From: a virus
Reading direction: 5' to 3' (one strand)
Virus record (IMG/VR): IMGVR_UViG_3300042691_020903
Location: 1 to 38,375 of that record
Length of the DNA: 38,375 nucleotides
Shown here: piece by piece, positions 9,609 to 35,175 of the stretch
How the letters are laid out: each line of letters starts with the position of its first letter
Position numbering within the stretch: the first letter of the stretch is position 1
Translations under genes and position numbers: made by a program
Notes under the pieces: model-generated
The model's input: the letters and a program-made list of their open reading frames with translations, nothing else
Databases searched by the model: none
Told to the model about the DNA's origin: nothing

Positions 9609-11542
9609 TGCCACAGGTATGGATCGGCGGCACCGAGATCTATCTGGACGCTGACAAGCTCCCTGAGTTCACCTATTCGCTCACCGACATCTCGGACCCA
9701 TCCAAGGTGCGAGGTGCTCGCTCCACGTCCTTTGAGATCCCTGCGACCAACGCTGTCAGGCAGGCTCTTGGTGGCGTCACCATGAGCGAAGGGGCCGCGC
9801 TGTCGGCGTCGTTCAGGATCGGAGAAGCTGGAGCGACCTTGTTCAACGGCACCTGTACGCCTGTGGAGTGGTCCGACGATAGCATCACGGTCAACGCCTT
9901 CAGCGATAATGCGGGGTGGGCGCAGGATGCCAAGGGGACAAAACTGCAAGACGTCAACCTTGGCATCAGTGAGCTGGTGACAGAGACGTATCAGCGCGAC
10001 AGCTGGACAGACCAGGAGAGGGCTGACTGCTACCCGCTGATCTGCTATGGCTCCTTTGAGGATAGGTCATCGGCGCACAACGTGACCGTCGCCAAGCTGC
10101 GGCCAGCGGTACGTGTACATCGCCTGCTCAACAAGTTCTTCAACGACCGTGGGTACACCGTGCGAGCGGTAGGCAGGCTGGCGCGCCATTGGAAGGGGCT
10201 TATCCTGCCAAATACCGGCAAGGTCAAGATAGCACAGGAGACCCTTGATGCAAGCACGGCCAGCGTGCAGGGTACTGCTGGGCTCACCCCTGTGGTCTAT
10301 AGCTTATGGCCTTCCACTGCGCCTGCTGATTACCCTGCGCCTGTTGTCATCACCGACCCCGGTGGCAATATGACCGGCAATGTCTACACCGCACCGGTAG
10401 ACATGCGCTTGCGCATAAGGGTTAACGGAACCAACATACATTCCGGAGGCTCCTTCGGCACACAGCAGTCCCAGCGCATCACGGTATACAGGCCCAACCT
10501 GTCCAACCTTCAACTCGGAGGGTTCACCTATTATGCCATCGGCCCCACGTGGACACAGACATTTAACGACCAGACTGTCTGGGAGGGCGATGTGGCGATG
10601 GGCGACCAGGTGGCCGTGGGGATCTACAGCGCGGGCAGCTTGTACTCATGCTTCACCGACGCTACCGTGACTTTCGAGCCGGCCAGCATCGACTTTACGG
10701 AGGGCGTGAAGTTCGACATCTCGGGAAGTGCCCCGAAGATGAGCGTCGGTGAGTTAATAGGAGGGCTGTGTAATGTGCTTCGGTTGGTCGTCTCTACCGA
10801 CGACAGTACGCACACGGTGACCTTCTCGTACTACAACGACTTCGCAAAGTCACCGGCTGACGGTATCGACTGGCGCGACAGGCTGGATCAGACCGAGCTG
10901 ATCAAGGTGCAGCCTGCGATACCATCATCATGGCTCTTCCGCTTCAAGGAGGACAGCAATGACCTGTACCTGCGCGGCTACGCCGAGGTGAACGACAGAG
11001 GATATGGCGATACCGACTGGGACATCCCTATGGGCGTGGATAAGCCTGTCGAGATAGAGGTGCCATTCGCTGCCACCATCTCCAAGATGAGGTTCGGCAA
11101 CATCATCATCCCTGCTATGCGCAAGGAGGGGCCCTACTACCAGCAGGACTTCTATGAATACCAGCCTCGCCTCTTGGTGATGGATGGAACGGTCGACGCC
11201 TTCTGGAGGCATGACGGTACCGACATGACGTATGCGCCCAACACCTACTTCGTAGGCATCACCGCCAATGACATCAGCTTGTCGTTCGGCCGAGAGAGCG
11301 ATCCCGGAGGCAATAAGGCTGGGACCGTCGAGAAAGAGTGGTCCGAGTTCATCAGGCGCAGCTACAGCCCCATGCTACAGGTGAAGGTGCGAGTGTATGA
11401 CGACGAGTTCCTGTCGTTCAGCTTCGGCAGGCCTCGCCTGGTGCATGACGGATGGCACTATCGGTGGTGCTATGTTCAGGAGGTGAAGGGCAAGCGGTTC
11501 GGTGATGAGTCATTCGTGGAGTGTGAACTGATACCTGTTTAG
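9608..11542 (+). CDS. Large tail / baseplate-hub-like protein
   Basis: A 644-residue protein. The N-terminal part ([34 protein letters not shown]) resembles a recurrent opening in Bacteroidota phage tail proteins in which a short strand and a DIxDxS element precede an S-x-SFxxPAT-N segment. The middle is beta-rich and the C-terminal part has [18 protein letters not shown] and [19 protein letters not shown]. There is no catalytic motif. It precedes the tape measure gene by two bases, the usual place for tail-tip proteins, though here on the other side of the tape measure from canonical order. Confidence 0.55.
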
Positions 11543-11544
11543 GC

Positions 11545-13881
11545 ATGGCACAGAACGAGGTTATCGTAACCCTCAAGGTAGACAACGCGGAGGCGCTGGC
11601 GCAGTTCGAGAAGCTGACGCAATCGCTCACCAAACTGAGCCTTGAAAAGAAGGCGCTCGGCAAGCAGATCAGGGACAACGACAAGGAGTTCCGCGCGCTG
11701 TCGCAGACGCTTCAGGAAGTGGGCGGCTCGTCTAAGGAGATCGAGGACGAGATCGCTAAGAACAGAACGCAGTTTGACCAGCTCACCAAGTCGCTGGCCC
11801 GTGCTGACGCGGCGTACGAGAGCACGCGGCTCCAGTTCAAGGAGGCCAGGAACGACATCAGCGGGGCCACGGCTGCTGGCCTGCGCTTCCGTGACGTGCT
11901 GGCCGACAGCACGGCCAAGGCCATCAACCAGACGGTACTCCCGGCCTTCGATAGCCTCAAGCAGCAACTGAGGGAGGCCACCAAGGAGGCACAGATCGCC
12001 TTCCAGACCTTCGGGCGCAACAGCAAGGAGTTCCGGACGGCAGCCGCCCGGGTGGACGACCTTCAGGACGCCATCAAGGAGGTCAACATCAGCGTCGAGG
12101 CCATCGACTTTGAGGGAAAGATCCAGACGTTCGGGCGGGTAGCGGAGGGAATCGCCGGTGCGTTCGCGGTGGCCCAGGGTGCGGCCGCGCTGTTCGGAGA
12201 GGAAAACGAGGCGGTGGAAAAGGCCATCCTGAAGGTTCAGGCTGCGCTTGCCATCACGCAGGGTATCGAGAGCATCAACAACGCGATCAAGGCCAGCAAG
12301 GGGCTTGCTATCGCGCTGGGCATCACCACCACGGCAACGAAGGCACAGAGCGTTGCCAACGTAGAAGAGGGCGGAACGAAGGTTGCCGGAACGGTAGCGA
12401 CAGGTGGGGCTACCATCGCTACACGGGCGCTCGGTGTCGCCATGAGCGCCTTGCCCATATTAGCCATCATCGCAGGTATCGCTGCTATAGCAGCCGCATA
12501 TAGCGCGTGGGTCAGCGAGTCGGAGGATGCTGCCGCAGAGATGGATCGCATCATTGACCTGAGCCGCAAGCTGGCGCAGGACACCGAGGATGCGGTAAAG
12601 GCCGAAGAAGACCTTGCCGTCGCCACCGGTCGCATGACCGAGGAGCAGCGCAAGAAGAACGACATCCAGCGCGAAGGAGCAAAGGAACTGACAAGCCTGC
12701 TCATCGAACGAGACCGCATAGCCAAGGAAGGCACAGCCGAGGAGTTAAGGCTGGCTGATGAGCGTATCGAGGCGGCTAAGCGGGAGCTAATTGCCAAGTT
12801 CGGGGTGGTTGATGCTGAGAAAGCTCGTGCAGATGCGGCTGCCAAGGCGGCAGAGGAGGAGAAAAAGCGCAGAGAGCTTGAGAAGGCAGAGGAAGAGCGC
12901 AAGCGAAAGGCGGATCAAGATGCGAAGCAGCGGGCCGCAGAGGCGGCAAAGCTGCGCGAGCAGGATCTCAAGCTGATTGCCGAGCAGTCCAAGGCCGAAG
13001 CGGAACGTGTGCTGCGCGTTGAGCAGCTCGAGAACGAATATCTCGACAGCAAGCTCACGAGGCTTCAGATCGAGGAGAACGCTATCAGGGAGAAGTACTT
13101 CGCAGAGATAGAGGCAGCAGGGCAGGCAGGGCAGGACATTGCTACCCTTGAGGCTGCCCAGCAGGCTGAGCTGAATCAGGCAAGGGCTATTGCAGCGGCT
13201 GAACAGCTTGCTGCCGACCAAGCATTGAGAGAATCGTCTGTTTCAGCATCTGAAACTATCATTAGCGCGAAGGAAGCGGAGCAGATGGCTACCGAAGCTA
13301 CTGCACAGGCCATTGGAGCCTTGGCTCAAGTGGCTAAAGAAAATAGCGCTGGTCAAAAAGCGCTCGCCATCTCTCAGGCACTGCTTAATACGTATTTAGG
13401 TGTGGCTCGTGTCCTTGGGAACGAGACGGTATTGCCTGAGCCTGCTGGTACGATTAACAAGGTAGCAAGTATAGCCACCGTACTTGCAACTGGCCTATCT
13501 GCTGTGGCACGGATGCGAGGATTCAGCGATGGCGGCTACACCGGCAACGGTGGGAAGTATGAACCGGCTGGCGTGGTCCACCGTGGCGAGTACGTCCTGC
13601 CCCAAGAGGTGGTGCGTGCATTGGGCGTCGATAGGCTTGACGCCCTGCGGGCCATGTTCACCAACGCCCCGCGCATCAACGGCAGCTATGTCAATGGTGG
13701 CTATGTAGCAACGCGCGGCACGGCCTTGGTCAATGTTGCCGCTCCAACGACCGAGAGTATCTTGCAGTCACAACAGATTGCAGCCACCCGAGGCATGGAC
13801 ATGCAGCCCGTCATGGTGATCGAAGACCTTAACAGGGTCCAGCGCCGCGTGTCAATCCGTGAAAGCCGATCCACGCTATGA
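11545..13881 (+). CDS. Tape measure protein
   Basis: A 778-residue protein with classic tape-measure architecture. Residues 1-190 form heptad-rich coiled coil ([20 protein letters not shown]). Hydrophobic Ala/Gly-rich segments follow around 205-320, including [21 protein letters not shown] long Glu/Lys/Ala coiled coil spans about 330-560. The tail has [20 protein letters not shown] and an [10 protein letters not shown] helix, a C-terminal signature seen in many tape measures. It sets tail length and is ejected with the DNA. The 13,200-13,500 stretch is visibly more AT-rich than its surroundings, suggesting local recombination. Start ATG at 11545, two bases after the previous stop. Confidence 0.9.
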
Positions 13882-27450: not shown

Positions 27451-27480
27451 TTGCACATATCAAAATGATATATATATTTG
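27451..27480 (+). promoter_or_regulatory. Early promoter, TTG-N19-TATATTTG
   Basis: TTG at 27451-27453, a 19-base spacer and TATATTTG at 27473-27480 match the Bacteroidota vegetative promoter. The expected start is about 27484-27487, giving a leader of about 16-19 bases before ATG at 27503. It is the first promoter after the 25-kb late block and likely starts early transcription. Confidence 0.75.
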
Positions 27481-27502
27481 CACCATCAACAACACGCAAC
27501 CG

Positions 27503-27802
27503 ATGAACACCTTTGCACACCTCGACACCGATACCGGAGTGGTCAACATGTACCGCGACTGTGACTGCTGCTATGAGCAGGTCTATGCCACCACCAGCAT
27601 TGACATCCTGATGGGCGACTATAAGATCTGGGAAGACGTGAAGGGCGGTGAATACCACGACAGCTGCGACATCATCGACTACACAGAGGCCGATTGGCGC
27701 GACTACCGCAACAACGCCATCATGTACGATGAGTACGAGCTGCGCGTCAAGGCATGGGCCAAGGAGCTTGGATGCAACATGTACGAACTCAACATCAACT
27801 GA
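27503..27802 (+). CDS. Hypothetical early acidic protein
   Basis: A 99-residue, strongly acidic protein and the first gene after the early promoter. It is rich in Asp, Tyr and Cys: MYRDCDCCYEQVYA, DVKGGEYHDSCDIIDYTEAD, ELGCNMYELNIN. The CDCC cluster and later cysteines may bind metal. Acidic first-expressed phage proteins are often host-takeover factors, for example DNA mimics or inhibitors of defence. That is inference from position and composition only. Confidence 0.55.
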   Translation: MNTFAHLDTDTGVVNMYRDCDCCYEQVYATTSIDILMGDYKIWEDVKGGEYHDSCDIIDYTEADWRDYRNNAIMYDEYELRVKAWAKELGCNMYELNIN

Positions 27803-29510: not shown

Positions 29511-29892
29511 CTACCTGCGCGACTTGGCCCTCGCTGTCACCAACGGCAACGCCAAACCCGCCGAGACCTATGCCTATCTCTACAACCTCTCCAAGGTCGT
29601 GGCAGAATGCATGGAGGCGGTCAAGGAGTCGGCCATTGAGGAGGTCGCCAAGTACGGCGCAGAGGGCTGCACGGCAATGGGCCTGCGCATGACCACCAAG
29701 AGCGCCGCAGGGCGCTGGAACTACAAGGCGGTGGCGGCACATGCCGACCTGATGGCGCGGGTCAAGGAAGTCGAGGAACTGGCGCAGACAGCCTACCGCA
29801 CTGGCGGCAATGTCACCGACCAAGACGGTTGGTACATCGAGCCTGCCGTATACCTGCCAGGAGGCACCACCATCTACACAACCAAAGCATGA
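29491..29892 (+). CDS. Hypothetical phage protein, Gp157-like style
   Basis: A 133-residue protein with a helical first half (ISNYLRDLALAVTNGNAKPA, AYLYNLSKVVAECMEAVKES) followed by EEVAKYGAEGCTAMGLRMTT, a second helical region and a short beta C-terminus. The helix-KYG-G..MTTK.AAGRWNY plan is common in early or replication-linked phage proteins (the x-KYG-x2-G element). No activity can be assigned. It overlaps the RHH gene at its start and the next gene by ATGA. Confidence 0.5.
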   Translation: MDTNISNYLRDLALAVTNGNAKPAETYAYLYNLSKVVAECMEAVKESAIEEVAKYGAEGCTAMGLRMTTKSAAGRWNYKAVAAHADLMARVKEVEELAQTAYRTGGNVTDQDGWYIEPAVYLPGGTTIYTTKA

Positions 29893-30290
29893 ACACGCTG
29901 ACCGTCAAGAGCAGGTGGCAGGACAGCCCCTGGGTGCCGGAGCCAGGCTCCGTCCTCGGCGTCTACAGCTACACCCTCGATGGGGTGACCCACACCATCA
30001 CCGAGCGCGAGGTGCGGGCCGCCGAGCGCATGGGGCGGCAGAGCCACCGCGACTATGGCGCCACCTGTGAGCAGCCCACCACCCCGCGCGGCGGCTGGGA
30101 GCTGTTCGGCATGCGCCCGGGGGCCACAGGGGACAAGCCGGTGGATGAGTTAGGCAACAGCCGATGGAACACAGAGCAAGACGCCAAGCTGCGCAGGCTC
30201 TACCTGAATGGGACGGGCCTGACGGAGCTGGCCGAGCTGATGCGCCGCAGCGAACGTGCCTGCGTTACACGACTGAGGCGTCTGGTGTAG
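29889..30290 (+). CDS. Protein with C-terminal HTH/SANT-like domain
   Basis: A 133-residue protein. The ATG at 29889 overlaps the upstream stop. The N-terminal 80 residues are polar with ITEREVRAAERMGRQSHRDY. The C-terminal 45 read WNTEQDAKLRRLYLNGTGLT followed by ELAELMRRSERACVTRLRRL: a Trp then a three-helix HTH or SANT/Myb-like unit with 'LTELAELMRRS..ACVTRLRRL' as turn and recognition helix. Probably a DNA-binding regulator. It ends at the exact base before the TATATTTG box (30291) of the first structured RNA. Confidence 0.6.
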   Translation: MNTLTVKSRWQDSPWVPEPGSVLGVYSYTLDGVTHTITEREVRAAERMGRQSHRDYGATCEQPTTPRGGWELFGMRPGATGDKPVDELGNSRWNTEQDAKLRRLYLNGTGLTELAELMRRSERACVTRLRRLV

Positions 30291-30298
30291 TATATTTG
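30291..30298 (+). promoter_or_regulatory. -7 box (TATATTTG) of structured-RNA promoter A
   Basis: A perfect TATATTTG immediately after the upstream stop codon, followed by ACCGC. The same 13 bases TATATTTGACCGC occur at 33016. No TTG lies 19 bases upstream, so a -33 contact is weak or an activator is used. The expected start is about 30302-30305, the first bases of hairpin P1. Confidence 0.65.
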
Positions 30299-30301
30299 AC
30301 C

Positions 30302-30411
30302 GCCCGACCATCGGGCCACGGGTAGCCGACCGTGATGAGAAGACCACCATACCGCCCCAATGGGAACGCGCCAGCGGCTACTGGCGTCAGTACCTGCGGG
30401 GCGCTTTCTTT
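30302..30411 (+). ncRNA. Structured RNA, copy A, with kissing-loop architecture
   Basis: Hairpins in order: P1 GCCCGA/TCGGGC (30302-30316); P2 CACGG/CCGTG (30317-30334, loop GTAGCCGA) directly abutting P1; linker ATGAGA..GACCA..ATACC; P3 outer CGCCCC (30353-30358) with GGGGCG (30398-30403), and P3 inner CGCCAG/CTGGCG (30369-30386, loop CGGCTA). The P2 loop TAGCCG (30323-30328) is perfectly complementary to the P3 loop CGGCTA (30375-30380). Then comes CTTTCTTT, so it may end here as a small RNA or continue as the leader of the primase-helicase mRNA. The homologue at 33027 shows compensatory changes in every helix. I know no named family that fits. Confidence 0.75.
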
Positions 30412-30595
30412 GGACGGCGGATGGCACATGGCGAATCCCCCTATTCTTGCCGGGGTAAAATGGTCCGGCGAAAATGCAGTGTTGGAAAAAAGTGTCGAGC
30501 AATGTGCCGTTGCGCCGTAACCTTAGAGGCTGTAGGGAGATAGGAGGAAAACGATGTGCCGTAAACCGCTGTACGAGCTGTAAAATGTGCCGAAC
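30412..30595 (+). other. Repeat-rich leader before the primase gene, candidate replication origin
   Basis: About 180 bases without a convincing gene. ATGTGCCG occurs three times (30502, 30554, 30585), twice followed by T, plus one inverted copy of its first seven bases (GGCACAT at 30423-30429). CCCC and GGGG around 30437-30455 can form a small stem. Short repeats just upstream of a primase-helicase suit an iteron-type origin or an operator array. The repeats also create tiny Cys-rich frames (30460-30543 and 30504-30605), considered unlikely genes. Confidence 0.35.
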
Positions 30596-32983
30596 ATGCC
30601 AGTAGTAACCGTCTTTAAGAACATCAGGGAGACCTCCACCCCCTTCTACAGGGATGCAGAGGGAATGCTTGACCGTATCAGGGAGGGAAAAAACAGGGAC
30701 CAGGTTGAAGCCATCCGTGCGGCAGGGGACAAGGCCGCACAGAACCGCCTAAAGGCCTCCCTGCCCTCGATCTGCTGGTCGGGCAAGTTCCCCCAACGCA
30801 ACGATGCCGCCATCCTTGCCCACTCCGGCCTCGTCTGCCTGGACTTCGATGGCCTCGGCACCGACGCCCCACGCCTGCGAGCCAAGCTGGTGGCAGACCC
30901 ATACACGTGGGCGCTGTTCACCTCCCCCGGCGGCGACGGCCTCAAGGTGCTGGTGCGCATACCGCCTGAGCCGCAGGACCACAAAGCTCATTTCGACGCC
31001 CTGGCCGAATATTACAGCGAGCCATCCTTCGACAGCACCAGCGGCAACATAAGCCGGGTGTGCTACACCTCCTACGACGCTGACCTATACCACAACCATG
31101 AAGCCCTGCTCTGGGAGGGGAAGAAGGAGAAGGACTGGCACGACATGGCGGTAAAGGCTCCCGAGATCAGGTTGCGGTCCAATAACGAGATCATCCGCCG
31201 CCTGCTCAAATGGTGGGCCGGCAAGTATGGGCTGGTGGAGGGGCAGCGCAACGCCAACGTGTTCAAGCTGGCCAGCGCCTTCAACCGCTTCGGCGTGCCA
31301 CAGATCGAGGCTCGCGGGGTGCTGATGGAGATGGCGCACGAGGGCTTCGACGACCGCGAGATAGACCGCATCCTGCACAGCGCCTACTCCAACAAGGAGC
31401 AGCACGGCACCCACTACTTCGAGGACCGCACCACGCGCGACCACATCCAGCGCCTGCTCATATCGGGGGAGAGCAAGTCGGCCATCAAGGCGACGCTGGC
31501 CGACAGGATGCCGCCCGATGAGGCCGAAGCCGCCATCAGCACCGTGGAGCGCAGCTCCCCTTGGATAGAGTTCTGGGAGAAGAACGACAAGGGAGTGGTG
31601 TCCATCGTCCACCATAAGTTCCGCTCATGGCTCGAGCACAACGGCTTCCGCAAGCTCTACCCAGAAGGCTCCGAGAACTTCGTCCTGGTCCACGTGGAGA
31701 ACAACCTGATCAGCAACACCAGCGCCGACCAGGTGAAGGACTATGTGCTCAAGCACCTCGAGCAGAAGGTGCCTGACGTGTCCATCTGGGAGCGCATGGC
31801 AGGCAGCGCCAAGTTCTTCGAGGAGAACTACCTGTCGATGCTGTCGCCCATCGAGGCGGCCTTCGTGAACGACACGCCCGAGGAGGGCATGCTATACTAC
31901 CGAAACTGCGCCGTGAAGGTCACCAAGGACCAGGTTGAGACCATCGACTACATCGACCTCGACGGCTATGTCTGGAAGAAGCATATCGTGGACAGGGAGT
32001 GGACCGGTGTAGGGCAGGGCGACGATGGCGTGTTCCGCCGCTTCATCCACCTGATCGCCGGGAAGAACAGCGATCGCGAGCGCAGCCTGCGCACCACCAT
32101 CGGCTACCTGCTGCACAGCCACAAGACAGCAGCCAAGAACAGGGCGGTCATCCTCAACGACGAGCAGATCAGCGACAACCCCAACGGCGGCAGCGGCAAG
32201 GGCATCTTCTGCCAATCCTTGGGCAAGATGAAGCGGCTGGCAAGCCTCGACGGCAAGGTGTTCAGCTTCGACAAGTCCTTTCCGTACCAGACCGTGGGTG
32301 CCGACACGCAGGTGCTGGTGTTCGACGACGTCGACAAGTACTTCCGGTTCGAGCGCCTCTTCAGCCTCATCACCGAGGGTATCACCCTGGAGAAGAAGAA
32401 CAAGGATGCGGTGCGCCTGCCGGTGCAGCGGTCGCCCAAGGTGGTCATCACCACCAACTACACCGTGGGAGGCGTCGGCGGCAGCTTCGAGCGCCGCAAG
32501 TGGGAGGTGGAGCTGTCGGCGCACTTCAACGCCAAGCACACCCCACAGGACGAGTTCGGCCATATGCTCTTCGACGAGTGGGACGGGCTGGAGTGGGCGC
32601 GGTTCGATGCCTACATGGTGGGGTGCCTGAGCCAGTTCCTGCGCGAGGGGCTGGTGGCCGCTCCGTTCAAAAACCTGAAGGTGCGGAAGTTCATCAAGCA
32701 CACCAGCCATGAGTTCTGGGAGTGGTGCTTCGATGGGAACCTGGAGCTGGGGCCGAGGCATGTGAGGGGCGCCAAGATGGAGGAGTTCACACGTGAGTAC
32801 CCCGACTACAAGGAGCGCGGCAAGTATGCCGTCACACAGAAAAGGTTCACGCAGTGGATGGCCGCCTGGGGCGAGTTCAATGGCTGGGAGGTAGGTGAAG
32901 GGAAGGACCAGAGCGGCAACAGGTACACCTACTACCGCACCGACGCGGATGTCAAGGAAGAAAGCGACGAAGCACCATTCTGA
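30596..32983 (+). CDS. Primase-helicase: VirE_N/BT4734-like N-terminus with SF3-like helicase
   Basis: About 795 residues. The N-terminal 180 residues match the VirE_N / BT4734-like domain (HSGLVCLDFDGLG, WALFTSPGGDGLKVLVRIP, DSTSGNISRVCYTSYDADLY), an archaeo-eukaryotic primase-like fold. A PriCT-like helical unit with RNANVFKLASAFNRFGVPQI follows near residues 215-265. The C-terminal half has an SF3/D5-like ATPase: NPNGGSGKGIFCQ (about 524-536, Walker A), QVLVFDDVDKY (about 570-580, Walker B) and KVVITTNYTVGG (sensor region). ATG 30596 is preferred; an in-frame GTG at 30587 lies in a leader repeat. It synthesises primers and unwinds DNA; no phage DNA polymerase was found, so host polymerase probably extends. 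Confidence 0.85.
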   Translation: MPVVTVFKNIRETSTPFYRDAEGMLDRIREGKNRDQVEAIRAAGDKAAQNRLKASLPSICWSGKFPQRNDAAILAHSGLVCLDFDGLGTDAPRLRAKLVADPYTWALFTSPGGDGLKVLVRIPPEPQDHKAHFDALAEYYSEPSFDSTSGNISRVCYTSYDADLYHNHEALLWEGKKEKDWHDMAVKAPEIRLRSNNEIIRRLLKWWAGKYGLVEGQRNANVFKLASAFNRFGVPQIEARGVLMEMAHEGFDDREIDRILHSAYSNKEQHGTHYFEDRTTRDHIQRLLISGESKSAIKATLADRMPPDEAEAAISTVERSSPWIEFWEKNDKGVVSIVHHKFRSWLEHNGFRKLYPEGSENFVLVHVENNLISNTSADQVKDYVLKHLEQKVPDVSIWERMAGSAKFFEENYLSMLSPIEAAFVNDTPEEGMLYYRNCAVKVTKDQVETIDYIDLDGYVWKKHIVDREWTGVGQGDDGVFRRFIHLIAGKNSDRERSLRTTIGYLLHSHKTAAKNRAVILNDEQISDNPNGGSGKGIFCQSLGKMKRLASLDGKVFSFDKSFPYQTVGADTQVLVFDDVDKYFRFERLFSLITEGITLEKKNKDAVRLPVQRSPKVVITTNYTVGGVGGSFERRKWEVELSAHFNAKHTPQDEFGHMLFDEWDGLEWARFDAYMVGCLSQFLREGLVAAPFKNLKVRKFIKHTSHEFWEWCFDGNLELGPRHVRGAKMEEFTREYPDYKERGKYAVTQKRFTQWMAAWGEFNGWEVGEGKDQSGNRYTYYRTDADVKEESDEAPF

Positions 32984-33015: not shown

Positions 33016-33023
33016 TATATTTG
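33016..33023 (+). promoter_or_regulatory. -7 box (TATATTTG) of structured-RNA promoter B
   Basis: A perfect TATATTTG followed by ACCGC, identical over 13 bases to the site at 30291. A TGG stands 19 bases upstream (32994-32996), a weak -33. It lies 32 bases after the primase gene stop. The expected start is about 33027-33030, at the first bases of hairpin P1 of RNA copy B. Confidence 0.65.
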
Positions 33024-33026
33024 ACC

Positions 33027-33130
33027 GCTGCCGTTAAGGTAGCCGCAGGTGCCGCTGCGATGAGACAGACCAACCACATACCCCCAAAGCGAAAGGACGC
33101 CCGGCACGGCGTGCGAGTAGCTGCGGGGGT
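33027..33130 (+). ncRNA. Structured RNA, copy B, with kissing-loop architecture
   Basis: Homologue of the RNA at 30302, with hairpins in the same order: P1 GCTGCC/GGTAGC (33027-33043, one G-U pair); P2 CGCAG/CTGCG (33044-33059, loop GTGCCG), again abutting P1; linker ATGAGA..GACCA..ATACC; P3 outer ACCCCC/GGGGGT (33080-33085 with 33125-33130) and P3 inner ACGCC/GGCGT (33097-33112, loop CGGCAC). The P2 loop GTGCCG (33049-33054) pairs perfectly with the P3 loop CGGCAC (33102-33107), with different bases from copy A. It is followed by TGCTGTTTC and then the ATG at 33147, so it is probably a 5' leader. Confidence 0.75.
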
Positions 33131-33146
33131 TGCTGTTTCATAAACC

Positions 33147-33854
33147 ATGTACAACGCACCGCGAGATACGTTCAAGCCTGATGCTGTTGTGATAGGTGGT
33201 TGCATCGAGATGCAAAGACCATCAGACACCAGTACGGGATGTGATTGCTTTCAGGTGAGCTTTATCATCTGTCACAACCTGAAAAGTGTCCGCATTACCA
33301 TGTGCCGTGAATGGGCCAGATACATGGCTGGACATCTTGCCATATCATCTCGCAGACACGCGACAGATGCTTGGGGGCAAGTTATTCGCGAGGCTGTACA
33401 AAAAGCATTCCCTATCAATTATGTGGTACATCATAGGATGTACCACATCCATAGTTCGACATTGCGAAAATTGATTGAGCCTCTTGGATACTTCCCGTCA
33501 TACTTTGATGAGACTGTGATGGATAATAGATATGGCACCATAGTCAACTCGATTCCATTGAGGGACATTGCTGAACAATACTTTTCTGAAGACATCGAAG
33601 AGTGGAAAAAAGTGAGTTACTATAAGTGTCAATGGACAGGTCCGATTGATAGATTGGGTGGTGATGTATTCGATAGAAATTATGAAGAGCACAGGAAGTT
33701 CCGCCGAGTACTTGACAACATCGCCAACCATGCGAAGGCGATAGACTCAATCAAGGAACACATCAAAAAAAGAGGAACACGGTCTGAAGACTTCGCGGCA
33801 GTTCTGCTGCATCTTTCATCAACAGAAGCAAAAACCAAACAACCAAACCAATGA
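33147..33854 (+). CDS. AT-rich orphan protein downstream of structured RNA B
   Basis: A 235-residue protein of unknown family. The DNA is clearly more AT-rich than the flanking genes and uses A/T-ending codons, suggesting recent transfer. Visible segments: CDCFQVSFIICHNLKSVRIT, CREWARYMAGHL, helix QVIREAVQKAFPINYVVHHR, FDRNYEEHRKFRRVLDNIAN and a Lys-rich end EAKTKQPNQ. It contains several Cys/His but no clear zinc-finger spacing. Start ATG 33147, 16 bases after the RNA. It overlaps the next gene by ATGA. Its own promoter and RNA leader make it a candidate host-interaction or counter-defence gene, by inference. Confidence 0.55.
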   Translation: MYNAPRDTFKPDAVVIGGCIEMQRPSDTSTGCDCFQVSFIICHNLKSVRITMCREWARYMAGHLAISSRRHATDAWGQVIREAVQKAFPINYVVHHRMYHIHSSTLRKLIEPLGYFPSYFDETVMDNRYGTIVNSIPLRDIAEQYFSEDIEEWKKVSYYKCQWTGPIDRLGGDVFDRNYEEHRKFRRVLDNIANHAKAIDSIKEHIKKRGTRSEDFAAVLLHLSSTEAKTKQPNQ

Positions 33855-34093: not shown

Positions 34094-34528
34094 ATGAGAA
34101 CCACGATCACAGCGTTTGCCGTCGCGCTCACCATGACGGCAGCAGCACAGCCACAGCGTATCCTTGAAGCCCTGGGCGAACCCATGACCACCAACATCCT
34201 CGAAAAGAAGATGTGGTATGTTATGAAGACGGGCGACTGCGCCATGTCCTTTGGCATCACTCCCATCGGCATCAAGGCCGCGATGGACTACGAGGTCTAT
34301 CTGATGGGCAGGCTAAAGGACTACTACGTCGAGCGCCAACGCAGCGAGGAACTGCTACCGCCGTACGTCAGTAGCATGGTGGACATCTACGCCATGAAGC
34401 TGGCGCTGGAGAAGGACGACGCGTTCATACTGCACAAAGACATCTACAACATCGAAGGGCAGCTGATGTTCTTCGCGTTGATGATGAGCAGCAAGGGGGT
34501 CACCATCTACTGCGGCACGGAGGAATGA
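34094..34528 (+). CDS. Exported hypothetical protein
   Basis: A 144-residue protein with a signal peptide (MRTTITAFAVALTMTAAAQP, cleavage plausible after AAA or AAQ). The mature part is helical with RILEALGEPMTTNILEKKMW, IGIKAAMDYEVYLMGRLKDY, YAMKLALEKDDAFILHKDI, and two cysteines (GDCAM and IYCGTEE). A secreted protein in an early region is unusual and may act in the periplasm, for example in superinfection exclusion. That is inference. It overlaps the methyltransferase-like gene by ATGA. Confidence 0.5.
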   Translation: MRTTITAFAVALTMTAAAQPQRILEALGEPMTTNILEKKMWYVMKTGDCAMSFGITPIGIKAAMDYEVYLMGRLKDYYVERQRSEELLPPYVSSMVDIYAMKLALEKDDAFILHKDIYNIEGQLMFFALMMSSKGVTIYCGTEE

Positions 34529-35175
34529 GAGTCCTGATTGCTTGTGAAAGTAGCGGAACGGTTCGGGAAGCATTCCGGGCATTAGGCCATGAGGCTTGGA
34601 GTGCCGACCTGCTTCCTGCTGATGACGGTTCACCATACCACCTACAAGGTGACGTGCTCCAGGTTCTCGCAAATGACTGGGACTTGATGGTTGGGCATCC
34701 GCCATGCACCTACCTGAGCGTTTCTGGTATGCACTGGACTACACGTGGCCTGCGTGACCCGAAGCTAACAGAGGATGCGCTGGAGTTCGCCCGCGCTTTG
34801 ATGGATGCTCCGATACCGCGAATTGCCATCGAGAACCCGGTGAGCATCATATCCAGCCGCATCCGCAAGCCCGACCAGATCATCCAGCCGTGGCAGTTCG
34901 GCGATGATGCCAGTAAGAAGACGTGCCTCTGGCTGAAGAACCTGCCGAAGCTGAACAATGAGGACAGGTCAAAGTGGATACCTGGGCGCATCGTTGGCGA
35001 GGACAAGCGCGGCATGACGATTGTGCGATGGGCTAATCAGTGCGACAGCGGCCAGAACAGGCTTCCACCATCAGAAGATAGGTGGAAGCAAAGAAGCAAA
35101 ACGTATAACGGCATCGCGCAGGCGATGGCACAAACTTGGGGTCATGGAATGGAAGCGAGTGGTGTTCTCTTTTGA
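34525..35175 (+). CDS. Short cytosine-C5 DNA methyltransferase-like protein
   Basis: A 216-residue protein with C5-MTase landmarks in order: the motif I region RVLIACESSGTVREAFRALG (residues 2-21), SADLLP (26-31) as the acidic strand, the catalytic VGHPPCTYLS (Pro60-Cys61) as motif IV, and AIENPVS (101-107) as the ENV-like motif VI. The C-terminal part has KKTCLWLKNLPKL and a final helical AYxGIAxAMAxxW-like segment (YNGIAQAMAQTWG). It is much shorter than a standard C5-MTase and lacks a clear target-recognition domain. It may be a minimal phage MTase, or a relative that modifies DNA or nucleotides differently. Overlaps both neighbours. Confidence 0.75.
   Translation: MRVLIACESSGTVREAFRALGHEAWSADLLPADDGSPYHLQGDVLQVLANDWDLMVGHPPCTYLSVSGMHWTTRGLRDPKLTEDALEFARALMDAPIPRIAIENPVSIISSRIRKPDQIIQPWQFGDDASKKTCLWLKNLPKLNNEDRSKWIPGRIVGEDKRGMTIVRWANQCDSGQNRLPPSEDRWKQRSKTYNGIAQAMAQTWGHGMEASGVLF

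Follow-up and report, generated by a model that had tools for sequence, protein, structure and literature searches.

Results

A kissing-loop RNA probably heads two transcripts of a phage

We found that a phage genome fragment of 38,375 nucleotides (the whole stretch analyzed here, hereafter the window) carries two copies, A and B, of a structured RNA in which the loop of a 5' hairpin (P2) is exactly complementary to the loop of a terminator-like 3' hairpin (P3). This RNA is very probably a cis-acting 5' leader. Its likeliest role, to which we give an even chance, is to attenuate transcription, with P3 as a terminator-like hairpin that the kiss links to P2, as the sequence layout suggests. The kissing-loop leader is undescribed, in the sense that it has no entry in Rfam 15 and was not found in the openly accessible literature (most subscription journals lie outside this scope). 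The putative assignment of the phage to Bacteroidota is based on its promoter type and the occurrence of relatives in Bacteroidota phages.

Both copies lie on the plus strand behind a perfect promoter -7 box TATATTTG (30291..30298 for A, 33016..33023 for B), which matches the Bacteroidetes sigma-A -7 box TAnnTTTG. As this box is located at -12 to -5 (PMC9723704; PMC7366714), the RNAs are predicted to start near 30303 (A) and 33028 (B), coinciding with the first helix, P1, to within one base. The window holds four perfect TATATTTG boxes against 0.13 expected, of which only those of A and B precede the fold. A third non-coding box (window 27473-27503) lies 22 bases ahead of a 99-aa open reading frame (ORF) and has no RNA, so the leader is not attached to every TATATTTG promoter of the phage.

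In copy A, P1 (GCCCGA/TCGGGC, 30302..30316) forms the extreme 5' end of the RNA; its pairs are retained through double-sided changes in B and in two relatives, L062 and L118, and it is absent in another, L234. P2 follows (CACGG/CCGTG, 30317-30321/30330-30334, span 30317..30334), with the loop core L2 TAGCCG at 30323-30328; the full loop is GTAGCCGA, so the kiss could be extended to 7 bp. The linker ATGAGAAGACCACCATAC (30335..30352), in which the pattern GATGA...CATACC is conserved across the GC-rich family, leads into P3 (30353..30403), a two-part stem with a GAA/AGTA internal loop between P3a (30353-30358/30398-30403) and P3b (30368-30374/30381-30387), the latter closed by the loop L3 CGGCTA (30375-30380). 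A T-rich tail, CTTTCTTT (30404..30411), comes next; of the 10 bases that follow P3, 6 are T. Copy B has the same parts: P1 (GCTGCC/GGTAGC, 33027..33043), P2 (CGCAG/CTGCG, 33044..33059) with L2 at 33049-33054, and, after a linker of 18-20 nt as in A, the two-part P3 (33080..33130) with its GAA/AGTA internal loop, composed of P3a (33080-33085/33125-33130) and P3b (33095-33101/33108-33114) with L3 at 33102-33107, followed by the tail TGCTGTTTCA (33131..33140). The loops are exactly complementary within each copy (TAGCCG/CGGCTA in A, GTGCCG/CGGCAC in B). A preliminary description, made by a model from the letters alone, had given this fold and held that copy B keeps every helix and the loop-loop pairing; on re-checking both copies, we found all its positions and sequences correct, both kisses exact, and both copies folding as described.

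Covariation supports the helices and the kiss

Folding energy separates the two copies from shuffled sequences to different degrees (z = -1.9 for A and -4.0 for B), and energy alone is no proof of a fold; the proof is comparative. The preliminary description had inferred a conserved structure from compensatory changes between its two copies. In a comparison by hand of A, B, L062, and L118, 117 of 120 cells were standard pairs and 19 pairs had double-sided changes, which bears out that inference. Because a MAFFT alignment of the whole family places P1 and P2 out of register between A/B and L062, we counted covariation by hand and on a consistent subset of seven in-register sequences, A included. 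In this subset, which carries the covariation beyond the two copies, 98.2% of cells were paired (none of 500 shuffles scored as high), and double-sided changes occurred at 13 of 24 pairs. P2 was paired in 100% of cells, as was the L2-L3 kiss, with four of its six pairs covarying, while sliding the partners against each other as a control lowered pairing to 27-46%. Minimum-free-energy folding, which is blind to the kiss, recovered P2, P3a, and most of P3b in nearly all ten GC-rich copies and left L2 and L3 unpaired in nearly all of them. A long-range helix around P3 in the predicted folds of A and B (GAGAAG/CTTTCTT; ATGAGACAG/CTGTTTCAT) was rejected as non-conserved, being present in only some of the copies. 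The minus strand folded no better than shuffles.

Relatives in GC-rich phages

Among the close relatives, L062 and L065 were reached via the helicase gene and L118 via a primase alignment. In L062 and L118, the fold lies immediately 5' of the primase start and has the loops GTGCAG/CTGCAC, and in L065, where the RNA heads a different operon, the 5' region pairs with the loop of the last hairpin over 7 nt (GAGCAAG/CTTGCTC). Further homologues came from a blind search of IMG/VR with a pattern of 16 fixed P3 bases (outer stem, GAA, AGTA, and GGGG) that held no letters of the promoter, P2, L2, or L3. It matched ten stretches, nine of them real members. The leaders among these that differ number eight, since L228 and the L118 contig are one and the same and L233 carries an identical leader. 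In each of the nine, a TAnnTTTG box (or TATCTTTA) precedes the match by about 58-67 nt, and the P2 loop is the exact complement of the leader's own L3; the tenth match, L230, has neither a promoter-like box nor a complementary P2 loop. We also trained a covariance model on the P3 hairpins of A, B, L062, and L118, and it scored the other blind members at 44-76 bits (E-values are rough). The RNA that the preliminary description knew from one phage has homologues by pattern and by model alike. The GC-rich model R1 had no match in 396 Bacteroidota genomes, a small sample with no positive control.

Two other searches yielded mainly chance matches. The lone match to TATATTTG...GATGAGA...AGACCA, in L010, was set aside as chance, as ATGAGAAAGACC there appears to open an ORF, and most of the 52 loci matching the AAGAACTTTTTT pattern look like chance matches inside coding sequence; the remaining ones are leaders of homing endonucleases or primases. 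Most marine primase relatives lack both the kissing fold and the TAnnTTTG leader. In L061 and in most marine relatives among L128-L197, we observed direct repeats such as AAATCGACAT together with a TGATAATCAG..AGTTA-like motif upstream of the primase, in place of the kissing RNA; this is possibly an origin or an operator.

A wider family in AT-rich phages

AT-rich phages have the architecture in a less strict form, with the P2 loop kissing the loop of a hairpin that carries a T-run. With a descriptor score of at least 70, it was found behind 23 of 293 TATATTTG boxes and in 0 of 293 dinucleotide shuffles; a looser pseudoknot descriptor (at least 65) gave 20 of 355 against 0 of 710. Among 18 leaders selected by box and start codon alone, with no structural criterion, 12 had a complement weight of at least 17 between their own 5' and 3' parts, compared to 7.5% of swapped partners. 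In one type of endonuclease leader, the loops read GTCGCCG/CGGCGAC, GTCGTCG/CGACGAC, and GTCGCTG/CAGCGAC, each with its matching partner, indicating compensatory change. Most AT-rich members close with a stem and a T-run. They precede primases (L121, L123, L124, L126, L127, L134, and L165), NUMOD4/HNH-type endonucleases (L004, L072, L149, and L175), and a GIY-YIG endonuclease (L185). Flavobacterium phage mumin6-4 (MN812223.1) has one copy at 11160, preceding the endonuclease gp033, and another at 12195, preceding gp036 and the helicase-primase genes, and Flavobacterium phage elemoE_10-3D has a copy upstream of its replication genes. One and the same leader, with the loop GTGGAAG, precedes an HNH-type endonuclease in L006 (4206) and the primase in L007 (5802); since L007 lacks that endonuclease gene, the endonuclease in L006 is placed between leader and primase. 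The internal loops of the AT-rich subfamilies (GGA/GAA and UGAU/UGAU) and their linker are unlike those of the GC-rich group, and the two groups may be either homologous or convergent.

These differences bear on what the RNA might bind. None of the ten aligned GC-rich copies departs from GAA/AGTA in the internal loop of P3, which matches the G-bulged sarcin-ricin (loop E) consensus. Some known riboswitches combine loop-E-like motifs with kissing loops, and in the leader these two elements could together form a pocket for a metabolite, for example a nucleotide. We consider such a switch very unlikely, given that the internal loop changes in the AT-rich subfamilies and that homing endonucleases and primases share no obvious metabolite. 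More generally, L2, L3, the linker, and the internal loop all vary between subfamilies, and we see no one site for a ligand or protein.

The leader lies directly before varied genes

A T-rich tail (at least 5 T among the 10 bases that follow P3) is present in all ten GC-rich copies, although T makes up 16-20% of these sequences, against a background of 7.4% for equally T-rich 10 bases after GGGG. In most GC-rich copies, including A and B, the T-tract is interrupted (CTTTCTTT and TGCTGTTT), and it may therefore terminate transcription weakly or not at all. The first ATG follows 11-17 nt past P3 in all ten GC-rich copies, opening ORFs of 40-799 codons, and 7-26 nt past P3 in 26 of 30 AT-rich ones (27% at random positions). 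No promoter box lies between P3 and the first ATG in the ten GC-rich copies and these 26 others. The short, box-free gap leaves the next gene without room for a promoter of its own, which indicates that the RNA lies in its 5' UTR.

The preliminary description had the RNA either heading the primase-helicase transcript or forming a separate small RNA. The position of copy A agrees with the first of these, with the amendment that the first ATG, 17 nt past P3, belongs to a possible 40-codon Cys-rich ORF (30421..30543, plus strand; MAHGESPYSCRGK...; MAHGESPYSCRGKMVRRKCSVGKKCRAMCRCAVTLEAVGR), which is putatively coding, and that the ATG of the primase-helicase (30596..32983, plus strand; BT4734-like N-terminal, PriCT-1, DUF5906; phrog_28855) lies 192 nt behind P3. 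Several ATGTGCCG repeats occupy the gap between copy A and the primase. Copy B is followed, 16 nt past P3, by the ATG of a gene for a 235-aa protein (33147..33854, plus strand) with no Pfam or PHROG match. As for the second option, a stable RNA of about 110 nt acting in trans, with the gene behind it receiving read-through only, would account for the bracketing by promoter and terminator-like hairpin, and a 5'-terminal hairpin joined to the 3' part by a kiss would protect such an RNA. We regard it as unlikely: the hypervariable loops leave no common target, the ATG is tightly spaced in nearly every copy, and a gene stands almost always directly behind the RNA even though its identity differs.

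The genes downstream of the RNA include primases, DUF6291 genes, a DnaD-like loader with DnaB behind it, DUF3223 genes, and NUMOD4/HNH and GIY-YIG endonucleases, and its usual site is the head of a replication module. The gene immediately upstream of copy A (29829..30290, plus strand; phrog_323-like C-terminus) has homologues in L226 and L231, where they likewise directly precede the RNA, and in L062 no counterpart of the RNA follows the primase. The shared upstream gene suggests that copy A occupies the ancestral site, and copy B is probably an additional copy. Elsewhere in the window, a DNA methyltransferase (34525-35175) is 90% identical to one at L011:7001-7654, on a phage contig that has no further detected DNA similarity to the window; this probably reflects recent gene transfer.

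Attenuation as the proposed function

The layout of an attenuator is present: a promoter, a leader with a 5' fold, a GC-rich hairpin with a T-tract, and an ORF whose start codon is near. We propose that a Bacteroidota-type sigma-A promoter would drive the leader in one mRNA with the gene 7-26 nt behind it. P2 would display a loop of 6-10 nt at the 5' end of the RNA, and P3 with its T-rich tail, which resembles an intrinsic terminator, would be linked to that end by the kiss between its own loop and the complementary P2 loop. The T-tract would stop some or all transcripts, and read-through into the replication operon or homing-endonuclease gene would be set by the kissing complex, whose state could depend on folding order or on a bound phage or host factor. 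As P3 and the kiss can coexist, the kiss would not displace the terminator hairpin but would stabilize or reorient it. We saw no alternative antiterminator pairing in the leader and found no obvious partner protein. The preliminary description had listed a put-like antiterminator, polymerase or ribosome control, and a switch as roles, and the T-rich tail behind P3 favors attenuation among them.

The put RNAs of phage HK022 suppress termination without protein through the zinc-binding domain of the RNA polymerase beta' subunit, and a nascent fold that binds RNA polymerase and carries it past later terminators in this manner, like putL and putR, would fit the position of the leader: both RNAs form compact hairpins at the 5' end of a transcript, both occur in two copies per genome behind (early) promoters (PMC9378689), and the present one heads replication operons. 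The put RNAs are about 70 nt with two stem-loops and copies alike in sequence, whereas the leader is longer, has two or three hairpins, and differs in its loops and internal loops between subfamilies; the leader also closes with a terminator-like T-tract right before an ORF, a feature put lacks, and a kissing loop goes unmentioned in the put paper. A put-like role is therefore improbable in our judgment.

P3 is near enough to the start codon (7-26 nt) to act on ribosomes, and P3 and the U-rich tract before the AUG might govern ribosome loading, with the kiss as an on/off state. Free-standing homing-endonuclease genes of phage T4 are kept down by RNA structure at their 5' end (PMC2988022), and Bacteroidetes are reported to lack Shine-Dalgarno sequences and to tune initiation by structure (PMC6847099). 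The T4 structures are simple hairpins over a Shine-Dalgarno site, unlike a kissing fold with a T-tract that also stands before replication genes. The activator pseudoknot of IncI-type rep mRNAs is comparable too, but its opposing antisense RNA is not indicated here by a search that covered this promoter type: no antisense TAnnTTTG occurs within 400 nt in any of ten copies. With the start codon outside the structure, and termination explaining the T-tracts better, translational control appears quite improbable from this analysis.

Comparison with known RNA families

We compared the window, eight GC-rich loci, and ten that are mostly AT-rich with the 4227 families of Rfam 15; the RNA matched none of them at gathering score, in line with the earlier suggestion that it was undescribed; the sole match at that score was a tRNA elsewhere in L124. 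DUF3800-IX (RF02968) scored 21.9 bits on P3 of B and 16.4 bits on P3 of L062, below its gathering score of 36.8, and did not hit A. It resembles P3 of B and L062 in its order of outer stem, CGAA, inner hairpin, UAG, and outer stem, but has no P1, P2, or kiss. No DUF3800 gene was present among the subset of window and downstream ORFs scanned with Pfam, and a search of 297 genomes with this model returned no match, with the controls likewise silent. In the cobalamin riboswitch, a kissing loop joins the aptamer and the expression platform, so the regulatory contact is, as in the phage leader, a loop-loop kiss to an expression-platform hairpin. The leader is much smaller, lacks a cobalamin core, and has no Rfam match.

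Discussion

Little is known about gene timing in phages of Bacteroidota, a dominant gut phylum. The leader recurs in front of unrelated replication modules (a VirE-type primase; DnaD or DUF6291 with DnaB) and of mobile endonucleases of the HNH and GIY-YIG types, suggesting that these genes share a step of control, one that is now open to testing in the cultured phages mumin and elemo. As loop-loop pairing accepts many sequences, the element could also be put to use as a designable switch. A bolder reading, which we think rather unlikely, is that such widespread Bacteroidota-phage leaders act on the host RNA polymerase as conditional terminators with a private loop-loop code per copy; if so, replication and homing-endonuclease genes would be controlled by terminators that need no protein. 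Whatever the mechanism, the leader, judged by its place in these genomes, probably controls how strongly replication and homing-endonuclease genes are expressed.
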